This document shows positions 4,925 to 30,704 of a DNA stretch of 64,000 nt, one piece after another. The DNA comes from Streptomyces sp. CBMA29 (GTDB taxonomy: Bacteria; Actinomycetota; Actinomycetes; Streptomycetales; Streptomycetaceae), in NCBI RefSeq assembly GCF_014596445.1, contig NZ_MECL01000035.1, positions 1 to 64,000 on the forward strand. The letters are read 5' to 3'. Positions within the stretch are counted from its first letter, which is position 1. The number at the start of each line of letters is the position of its first letter. The notes under the pieces were generated by a model, which was not told the origin of the DNA, did no database searches, and saw only the letters and a list, made by a program, of their open reading frames with translations. A program made the translations under genes and the position numbers.

Positions 4925-4957
4925 GGCCCTGGCTCTTTCGGGTGCCGTTCGGGTGCC

Positions 4958-5110
4958 GTTCGGGCGGGGGTCGGTGCCGGGCCGGGGTACCTCCTCGAAA
5001 TCCGTATCACCTGGTCACGCGTATCCGGTGACCTTCCTGTCAACGTATTTCTGCGGGGGCACCCCAGCCCGTCCCCTCCCCTCCCCTCCCCTCCCCTCCC
5101 CTCCCCCTTC
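4958..5110. repeat. Solitary arm (copy A) of the inverted-arm repeat family
   Basis: This stretch matches the arms of the two large elements at 9346-10430 and 29611-30704. It shares GGGGTACCTCCTCGAAATCCGTA, split here as GGGGTACCTCC and TCGAAATCCGTA, and then CTGTCAACGTATTTCTGCGG and GGGCACCCC. The outer pairing is AAATCCG (4998-5004) with CGTATTT (5044-5050). The inner stem is a perfect GGTCAC (5013-5018) / GTGACC (5028-5033). There is no partner arm or unit array; instead it runs into a CTCCC microsatellite (about 5071-5105). It lies between two convergent genes. Confidence 0.75.
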
Positions 5111-9345: not shown

Positions 9346-10430
9346 GTCTTGTCTTTCCCGCCCGCCCACCCGTGCGGGTGTGTTGTTCGTCTGCGGGTGC
9401 CGCTTGTGCCTGGTCGGTGCCGGTCCGGGGTACCTCCTCGAAATGCGGCTGCCTGCTCTTTGCTGATTCGGCACCCTTCCTGTCACCGCATTTCTGCGGG
9501 GGCACCCCGGCCCGTCCCCTTCCGGTACGTCGGCGTCCGCCTGTCCGCTGTGGCTGAGGGGGTGGGGGGTCTTCCGGCGAACCGTCCTGCGCCGGTGCCC
9601 CCTCCCGGTGTGGCGAAGACCTCGGGCCCTTCCCCAAGCACCCCACGAAGCCCCCGCCCCGCCACACTGCCAGCCCGCGCAGGTCCTCTCGGCCCTCACC
9701 CACTCCCTTTCGCCCACCCCGGCCGGACGTCGCGTGGCGCAGGTCCCGGTTCCTGGCACCCGTTTTCGCCCGCCCCAGCTGGACGATCGGGCGGCGCCGG
9801 GGCTCGGCCTCCCTCCCACCCCCTCCCGCCGCCCCCCACCGGACTGTCGGATGCCGATGTGCCTAAACCCGCCCACCCCCCCGCCCGAAGGCGCCCCGTC
9901 GGCCGCCCAAGACCCGGACCCCACCCACCCCCCTGCGCCACCTCGCCGAACGTCGGCCGCGCGGGACCCGCACCTCCCCCACCCCCCCTTTCGCCCACCC
10001 CGGCTGGACGGCCAGGTGGCGCAGCGGCCCAGCCCCCACCCCCCTCCGCCACCCACATGAACAGGCACCCGCCGCCGTACCCAAACCCACCCACCCCCCT
10101 CCCTGGCCACCCCGCCGGACAGGCACCCGCCGACGTACCCGAGCCCACCCACCCCCCTCCCGCCCACCCCCACCGGCAGGCGAACGCCGACGAGCTCACC
10201 CCCACGCACCCCCCTCCCCGGCCACCCCCACCGGGCAGGCGGACGCCGATGGACCCGGAGGGGACGGGGCGGGGTGCCCCCGCAGAAATACGTTGACAGG
10301 AAGGGTGCCGGATACGAGGGGCCAGGTGTTACGGATTTCGAGGAGGTATCCCGGGCCGGGACCGACCAGGCACGGGCGGCACCCGCAGACGGAAAAAGCA
10401 CCCGCACGGGTGGGCGGGCGGGCGGGGAGG
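9346..10430. repeat. Large inverted-arm element, copy 1
   Basis: The left arm B (about 9346-9547) and right arm C (about 10255-10430) are inverted copies of each other and of arms A, D and E. Arm B has a perfect AAATGCGG (9441-9448) / CCGCATTT (9486-9493) stem with inner TGCC/GGCA. Arm C has AAATACG (10286-10292) and CGGATTT (10332-10338). Between the arms lies one G-rich unit and then a C-rich array. The best units are in the right half, with the GCCGACGTACCC-type core at about 10071, 10129, 10186 and 10245, a period of 57-59. No transposase frame and no target duplication are seen. Open frames here only reflect the base skew. The element occupies the whole gap between the kinase and the ArsR gene. 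Confidence 0.8.
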
Positions 10431-29610: not shown

Positions 29611-30704
29611 TCTTGTCTTTTGTTTTTCCCGCCCGCCCACCCGTGCGGGTGATTTCTCCGTCTGCGGGTGCCGCCCGTGCCTGGTCGGTCCCGGCCCGGG
29701 GTACCTCCTCGAAATCCGTAACACCTGGCCCCGGGTATCCAGTGACGTTCCTGTCAACGTATTTCTGCGGGGGCACCCCGCCCCGTCCCCTCCTCGCCCG
29801 TCGGCGTCCGCCTGTCCGCTGTGGTGGCGGAGGGGGGTTGGGGGAACTGGGCCCGCACCCGGCGCACGGCCAGTCGCCCAGCCCCCGGCGGACCGTCGGG
29901 CGCCGACGTACCCGAACCCACCCACCCCCTCGGCCCACCCCGGTGAGGGTCAGGTGACCCCGGACCCCGGACCCCGGACCCGATTCACCCCCTCCCGTCA
30001 CCCAGACGGACAGGCGAACCCCGATGTACCCCAGCCCACCCACCCCGGCTGGGCGGCCGGGTGGCGCAGGGGCTCGGCCTCGCCCTCACCCACCCCCGCC
30101 GACAGGCGGACGCCGACGTACCGGAGCCCACCCACCCCTCTCCCGCCCGCCCCCACCGGACAGGTGGGCGCCGACGTACCCGAACCCACCCCCCCTCAGC
30201 CACAGCGGACAGGCGACCGCCGACGTACCGGAGCCCACCCACCCCCCTCCCGCTCACCCCCGCCGGACCGCCGGGCGCCGCCGTACCCGAGCCCACCCAC
30301 CCCCCTCCCGGCAACCCCCCACCGGACAGGCGGACGCCGACGTACCCGGCCCCCACCCACCCCTCTCCCGCCCGCCCCCACCGGACAGGCGGACGCCGAC
30401 GTACCCGGCCCCCACCCACCCCCCTCCCCGGTCACCCCCACCGGACAGGCGGACGCCGACGTACCCGAGCCCCACCCACCCCCGCCCCCCCTCAGCCCCC
30501 ACCGGACAGGCGGACGCCGACGGGCGAGGAGGGGACGGGGCGGGGTGCCCCCGCAGAAATACGTTGACAGGAACGTCACTGGATACCCGGGGCCAGGTGT
30601 TACGGATTTCGAGGAGGTACCCCGGCCCGGGACCGACCAGGCACAAGCGGCACCCGCAGACGGAGAAAGCACCCGCACGGGTGGGCGGGCGGGAAAGACA
30701 AGAC
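29611..30704. repeat. Large inverted-arm element, copy 2
   Basis: Arm D (29611-29818) and arm E (30503-30704) are inverted copies that differ at only a few positions over about 200 bases. Each has an outer pairing (AAATCCG 29712-29718 with CGTATTT 29758-29764; AAATACG 30557-30563 with CGGATTT 30603-30609) and an inner stem (CTGG/CCAG in E). One G-rich unit follows arm D, then C-rich units whose GCCGACGTACC core recurs at about 30171, 30220, 30278, 30337, 30395, 30455 and 30517, mostly 58-62 bases apart. The G-rich complement has many GGG runs. No transposase is encoded. The element fills the gap between the LacI gene and the broken phosphotransferase gene. Confidence 0.85.

Follow-up and report, generated by a model that had tools for sequence, protein, structure and literature searches.

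The window analysed here, a stretch of 64,000 nucleotides from Streptomyces sp. CBMA29 (contig NZ_MECL01000035.1, positions 1 to 64,000), carries two copies of a non-coding element in which two inverted arms enclose a C-rich array, together with a solitary core of the same kind. The features are as follows, with R1 denoting the covariance model of the core and A3 the alignment on which it was trained.

4949–5082, plus strand: solitary core lacking the usual array and outer end (arm profile search; R1, 93.8 bits)
9346–10430, no strand: copy 1, whole element of arm, array and inverted arm (contig comparison and arm profile search)
9357–9371, minus strand: copy 1 left terminal G-quadruplex motif (CCCGCCCGCCCACCC on the plus strand, GGGTGGGCGGGCGGG on the minus strand)
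9367–9380, no strand: copy 1 short palindrome CACCCGTGCGGGTG, with a T-rich stretch inward of it (terminator-like score, reading into the element)
9410–9526, plus strand: copy 1 left core hairpin (R1, 93.2 bits; also a row of the R1 training alignment, A3)
9571–10207, no strand: copy 1 interior array, C-rich on the plus strand, partly in units of 52–58 bp
10253–10369, minus strand: copy 1 right core hairpin (R1, 83.2 bits)
10408–10422, plus strand: copy 1 right terminal G-quadruplex motif GGGTGGGCGGGCGGG
29611–30704, no strand: copy 2, whole element of arm, array and inverted arm
29628–29642, minus strand: copy 2 left terminal G-quadruplex motif
29681–29797, plus strand: copy 2 left core hairpin (R1, 83.9 bits; also a row of the R1 training alignment)
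29856–30465, no strand: copy 2 interior array, units mostly of 58–60 bp
30524–30640, minus strand: copy 2 right core hairpin (R1, 83.4 bits)
30679–30693, plus strand: copy 2 right terminal G-quadruplex motif

The arms of copy 1 are ~215 bp long and are complementary over two stretches, 9357–9447 with 10332–10422 (89%) and 9466–9569 with 10210–10313 (84%); those of copy 2 span 29620–29855 and 30466–30701 (236 bp, 91% complementary). Each arm on its own is an imperfect hairpin. The coordinates and complementarity of both copies confirm the original prediction, made from the bare sequence, of inverted arms around a C-rich array occurring twice in the window. The right arms had been placed 16–70 bases ahead of the next gene, and the next start codon indeed lies 70 bases past the right end of copy 1 and 16 past that of copy 2. 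The array units, given as about 57–59 bp, agree with the main repeat spacings (57–58 bp in copy 1 and mostly 58–60 bp in copy 2) but not with the additional spacings of 52–56 bp in the former and 49 bp in the latter. The interior of each copy contains nine four-tract G-quadruplex motifs on the minus strand and none on the plus strand, in keeping with the description of the array as C-rich and G-quadruplex-prone. Not every interior in the family is C-rich on a single strand; that of L035 has four motifs on the plus strand and four on the minus strand.

Read from the outside inwards, an arm consists of a T-rich stretch, CCCGCCCGCCCACCC, the palindrome CACCCGTGCGGGTG, a T/C-rich stretch and CGTCTGCGGGTGCCGC, the core and finally the C/G-rich array. 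On the opposite strand CCCGCCCGCCCACCC reads as the four-tract G-quadruplex motif GGGTGGGCGGGCGGG, which is present at both ends in 16 of the 21 non-redundant inverted pairs of the window's genome (G000). The element as a whole is a pair of inverted ~200-bp units, each comprising a C/G-run end, a short palindrome and a ~118-nt hairpin core, flanking a C/G-rich array. Of 154 cores, 70 have the terminal C/G-run motif nearby, and 10 of 20 genomes contain it (block shuffling predicts 0.38); the candidate of a terminal G-quadruplex as a universal feature was therefore rejected. Where the motif is present its loop bases vary and its C3 tracts are constant, the tracts being demanded by the search pattern. 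In a terminator scan both arms of copy 1 scored at the short palindrome, in the inward direction (two of the three sites found; 0.5 expected from shuffles). Other species have the T-rich stretch in degenerate form.

The core is an imperfect hairpin of ~118 nt whose stem changes by compensatory substitution. Alignment A3 contains 32 core rows from 11 relatives and the window (the last row is cut on the 5' side), selected with a search pattern in which CTCCTCG and CTGCGGGG are constant, so that the constancy of these two strings is partly by construction. With the core folded as one long hairpin of 20 pairs, 94.5% of the cells pair; ten of the 20 pairs have changed on both sides (5.5 in shuffles; 0 of 500 as high), as have 60 cells (17.1 in shuffles; 0 of 500), and a control in which the partner was slid by 1–3 columns gave at most five pairs and at most 17 cells. 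Alignment A4 contains 80 R1 matches from 51 sources, four rows being the reverse strand of other rows, and leans towards the structure because it was fitted to it; 94.4% of its cells pair, with changes on both sides in 13 of 20 pairs (10.0 shuffled; 1 of 500) and in 203 cells (54.9 shuffled; 0 of 500). Further pair types are not in excess in either alignment (17 versus 17.0 in A3 and 31 versus 30.4 in A4).

The fold preferred by RNAalifold, consisting of three local hairpins (eight pairs and 42 cells when one pair is added), was set aside for the long hairpin (ten pairs and 60 cells), chiefly because columns 27–102 and 22–107 covary. Both folds contain the inner helix, and the outer part could alternate between them. 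A T–G opposition is present in 72 of 78 rows, and the A–C opposition has A in 47 and G in 33 of the 80 A4 rows; an earlier view that both oppositions are invariant was thus wrong. Since T–G and A–C correspond to G–U on opposite strands, the structure fits either strand, and RNA as well as folded single-stranded DNA. The suggestion of a structured RNA gene pair is therefore upheld strongly as regards structure, but not as regards RNA, which the data do not distinguish from a folded DNA strand. Single-strand DNA folding of four cores gave mixed results (z of −2.7, −1.2, −0.2 and −4.75). The two arms of an element resemble each other no more than arms taken at random (mean identity 0.910 within and 0.911 between elements; permutation p 0.53, from 17 of the 21 pairs), which gives no support to a selected structure formed by pairing of one arm with the other.

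The elements are far from confined to the window; such confinement would have spoken against the original prediction. G000 (277 contigs, 94% complete) contains 53 R1 core matches, mostly in inverted pairs. Copy 1 has 151 matches in its own genome, the best other among the matches listed lying on contig C165, with 92% identity across 1.07 kb. An arm profile search of 27 stretches of G000 (the window and 26 others) found 53 arms, forming 22 inverted pairs and nine solo arms, two of the latter bounding a single locus that contains genes. One element locus, flanks included, is present both on C261 (L033) and on C178 (L034) with the same match scores, which is probably assembly redundancy, and without this duplicate there are 21 pairs. 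These are 532–1551 bp long, with genes inside the longest; the shared architecture of the two window copies is therefore common to the family, while their equal length, also part of the original prediction, is no rule.

Counted across the genus, as had been proposed, cores were found with R1 in 23 of 35 genomes including G000, with 0–95 copies per genome (95 in G011, 71 in G016, 53 in G000, 30 in G003, 29 in G042, 24 in G044, 12 in G008, 11 in G041 and fewer in others); the other 12 genomes had no R1 match at E ≤ 1e-4. Within the family, cores were found in 32 of 249 genomes and five of 17 genera, with nine of 214 genomes positive outside the own genus (stricter filter), and a phylum-wide draw gave one of 296 genomes, G000 itself (stricter filter). 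A loose contig pattern was discarded as too permissive, R1 matches at E ≤ 0.001 being present in four of at least 120 named loci obtained with it; these are from Actinacidiphila oryziradicis NEAU-C40 and Streptomyces sp. PH10-H1 (two inverted cores each), SID14478 and NBC_01016. In G011 the elements are compact, with two unlike cores inverted ~60 nt apart and bracketed by another palindromic repeat (GCGCAGTTCCCCGCGCCCC). The elements constitute a dispersed palindromic-repeat family of streptomycete-like actinobacteria. They do not correspond to a known element among the RNA families or the plasmid and phage records: a cmscan of five element loci against Rfam 15 at E ≤ 1 gave two matches, both far below the gathering score and outside the elements, and copy 2 had no match in the plasmid and phage records at E ≤ 1e-5.

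The genes flanking the 21 G000 pairs are divergent in seven cases, convergent in four and tandem in ten (from home-made gene calls, with no background set), and no preference for gene ends is seen among them. This bears on whether the element could be a cis-acting RNA or DNA device that ends or insulates transcription from either side and is kept for its benefit to neighbouring genes. Such a device would be consistent with the inward-reading terminator-like hairpins in both arms of copy 1, with the compensatory conservation of the stem, with the retention of loci between G000 and G041 (see below) and with the position of a core upstream of what is, by eye, the same exported hydrolase gene in two species, where the core-bearing element ends ~30 bases before the start codon (L011 in G020 and L012 in G012). 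The lack of an excess of gene ends (four convergent pairs), the degeneration of the T-rich stretch elsewhere and the 12 genomes of the genus without a match make this unlikely. A chromosome-architecture site of the BIME type, binding gyrase or a nucleoid protein, would by analogy suit elements that are dispersed, palindromic, mostly intergenic and orientation-neutral, but with a distribution as patchy as 0–95 copies and the same 12 negative genomes it is scarcely probable.

G041 is the nearest among the relatives compared, and its element positions are those of G000. Its 11 cores fall into seven loci if the contig ends L289 and L292, each of which runs into a transposase, are counted as one locus, as they are inferred to be, and all seven are at G000 element loci; with the two ends taken apart the count is seven of eight, the flank of L289 matching the window at 12.0–13.3 kb, where G000 has no core. 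The G000 counterparts are copy 2 (beside a LacI gene), the solo core at 4949–5082 (L292), whose adjoining gene is also followed by an element in G041, L027, L028, L041, C261/C178 and L032. The identity of the main flanks is 77–92%, with one side at 69% (L028). The G041 cores nevertheless carry a stem sequence of their own. In a core tree that includes nine of the 11 G041 cores, with one L028 core entered twice and a bootstrap that had not settled, these nine form one group (99/95) that stands apart from the majority of the G000 copies at those loci. At L028, a shared locus, the left G000 core is placed beside the G041 group (98/94, with a long-branch warning), and two further G000 cores, at L045 and L038, branch in the direction of that group. 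This grouping and its exceptions indicate that most elements at shared loci have been rewritten within each species and that some have not, so that homogenisation between copies is incomplete. Because the G041 positions are common to G000, the pattern reflects mostly old loci rewritten in concert and not recent jumping.

Exchange between copies was examined through linkage within each genome. For G000, 43 of the 53 arms were used, excluding two on the duplicate contig, one short arm and seven that are truncated or divergent. All 43 are distinct, with 29 two-state sites, and the mean r2 falls from 0.226 at distances of 1–3 bp to 0.096 (4–10 bp), 0.063 (11–30 bp), 0.041 (31–80 bp) and 0.023 (>80 bp; 0.027 when shuffled), with four gametes in 93% of distant site pairs. 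For G011, 31 of 40 loci were used, nine that are cut or single-core being left out; all 31 elements are distinct (mean identity 0.90), r2 in the same bins is 0.432, 0.297, 0.283, 0.193 and 0.035 (0.037 shuffled in the last) and four gametes occur in 93% of pairs beyond 80 bp. Such a decay is what short-tract recombination would give, although linkage in G011 is still 0.193 at 31–80 bp and some of the decay could be mimicked by recurrent mutation between a small number of tolerated variants.

Several observations bear on movement. The match between copy 1 and the C165 element runs from terminal C/G-run to terminal C/G-run with unrelated flanks; ~330 bp of the array are identical and the arms differ as arms generally do, a likeness that may represent the copying of a whole element whose arms were overwritten later. 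In L045 (2584–5772) a core lies in frame inside the G000 mrpA-type antiporter gene (Pfam), where it is read as a low-complexity linker. In six relatives with both halves of the gene matched, the core is missing from this stretch and the two halves are at most 45 bp apart; the linker length varies among species, as seen in the rows of three relatives. At L039 G041 is without one G000 element, and at a second L039 site it has the GCGCAGTTCCCCGCGCCCC palindromic repeat where G000 has an element (L303; G041:C10:109.6–109.9 kb). In the comparison of filled and empty sites that had been suggested as a check, the empty sites are imperfect: at L039 the neighbouring segment is inverted in G041, and the mrpA linker varies in length.

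An enzyme for this movement was sought. Y1_Tnp (PF01797, RAYT) gave no match in G000, at 94% completeness, in a search that was positive in five of 14 control genomes, and no copy among the loci read has a transposase between its own two arms. Transposase sequence follows two element arms in G041, of the IS4/5 type (DUF4096) in one case and with a DDE domain in the other, and these pieces would represent insertions into an element. In agreement with the original prediction, no target duplication was seen by eye in the flanks of 16 pairs or in the copy 1/C165 pair. These observations bear on an ordinary MITE, in which the ends would be terminal inverted repeats belonging to a DDE transposon and the transposase would be, or would have been, encoded elsewhere. 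The long inverted ends, the non-coding interior, the many copies and a similarity boundary at fixed ends are in keeping with a MITE. The absence of a visible duplication and of a transposase between the arms, with the G041 pieces probably being later arrivals, and a compensating structured core in each arm that would seem needless for the recognition of double-stranded ends make this very unlikely. A non-autonomous mobile element in the broader sense is the best supported of the three readings in the original prediction; the dispersed copies, the C/G-run boundary, the mrpA insertion and the range of 0–95 copies favour it, whereas the failure to find a transposase or to see a duplication does not.

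Three of the six loci that can be compared between G000 and G041 (a seventh is broken by contig ends) have extra G000 genes between or beside the arms. These are TetR, short-chain dehydrogenase (SDR), glyoxalase-like and M48 peptidase genes at L027, an acetyltransferase piece at L028, and TetR and MFS genes with mobile debris, by eye, at L041, where the 6.9–10.5 kb beside the arms in G000 are taken to be insertion-sequence and Rhs-like debris. Element loci are not the sole places of change, since the window region at 19.6–23.2 kb is 3.5 kb long in G000 and 99 bp in G041 and no element arm was found there.

Integron attC sites are imperfect palindromes that are recognised as folded single strands and have a variable tip. 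The core could by analogy be a folded-strand recombination site, like attC or a neisserial repeat array, that exchanges gene cassettes. The extra genes at three of six loci are compatible with this, as is the hairpin tip, which is swappable as a whole between otherwise near-identical G011 elements on a constant frame (among 16 of 31 rows). The cassette-exchange reading is nonetheless highly improbable, as insertions also occur without an element (the 3.5 kb versus 99 bp above) and some of the insertions are transposases. AttC sites stand in direct cassette arrays, the present units in inverted pairs. A more specific proposal, that the core is a folded-strand site at which a putative dedicated actinobacterial enzyme exchanges tips and short tracts among dozens of sites within a genome and admits cassettes between paired sites, is speculative and distinctly unlikely. 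If it were true, a bacterium would possess a pool of intergenic elements that recombine freely across the whole genome.

The reading favoured here, with moderate confidence, is a REPIN- or BIME-like palindromic repeat that spread by the copying of whole elements and was then homogenised by short-tract recombination. A new locus would be founded by the copying of a complete element, from one C/G-run end to the other, into a site between genes. Copies within a genome would subsequently rewrite each other by recombination over tens of base pairs, perhaps aided by the folded hairpins, and the family would evolve in concert because of this rewriting. The stem would be retained through the recognition of the folded strand by a putative host or element factor, and accessory genes and insertion sequences would enter the loci as a by-product.

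REPINs are described as inverted REP doublets moved by RAYT transposases, with the doublet as the common unit (PMC3116915). The inverted doublet of hairpin repeats is found here in the 21 G000 pairs and in the compact G011 pairs, and the two also share an intergenic location, multiple copies and a non-coding nature (PMC3116915). Instead of a short REP the present unit is ~118 nt long and has a stem that changes by compensation, and it differs further in the lack of a Y1/RAYT match in G000; the G000 elements are 0.5–1.5 kb long with an array, and the exchange between their copies is deduced from linkage decay. CGTC-type REPs are dimer-forming palindromes without a dedicated transposase, reported from five phyla among which Actinobacteria are not named, and REPs in general are given as 20–40 bp (PMC3733652). 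The present elements are similarly palindromic, dimeric and without a dedicated transposase, with a core several times longer. Neisserial dRS3/NIME arrays, considered together with minimal mobile elements, are intergenic, 200–2700 bp long and suggested to promote recombination and gene exchange, the dRS3 unit ATTCCC(N8)GGGAAT being 20 bp with 6-bp inverted ends (PMC3898611). These arrays are the nearest functional analogue for gene exchange, unlike which the present elements have a ~118-nt covarying hairpin, belong to another phylum and have no known link to a phage integrase. Correia repeat enclosed elements have inverted repeats and a conserved core (PMC2649163), an architecture that the present elements resemble. 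The present elements are larger and GC-rich.

Searches of the open-licence literature turned up no named family of such repeats for streptomycetes, in line with the original prediction, which named no matching family. They yielded no paper for four 15-base core strings or for two strings of the neighbouring repeat; PMC8269248 does not contain the word stem 'palindrom', and neither Streptomyces nor Actinobacteria appears in PMC2267715. The elements add a large structured repeat family to streptomycete-type actinobacteria. They also offer a natural case of dispersed repeats that are fixed in position across species with variant linkage lost within tens of base pairs, from which exchange between bacterial repeats becomes measurable, and their loci are candidate entry places for accessory genes in streptomycete chromosomes. 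Several copies lie at contig ends in G011 and G041, a warning to assemblers, and false open reading frames cross copies 1 and 2, a warning to annotators.

Two further repeats occur near the elements. The second dispersed palindromic repeat, with GCGCAGTTCCCCGCGCCCC arms, is present at the G011 loci L215–L254. A stretch of 151 bp that is 87% identical between two species at unlike loci (L314:1546–1696 and G000:C158:106853–107003, equivalent to L030:4454–4604) has the complementary ends GGGGGTCGAAAT and ATTTCGACCCCC and adjoins core-bearing sites; it is perhaps another dispersed element.
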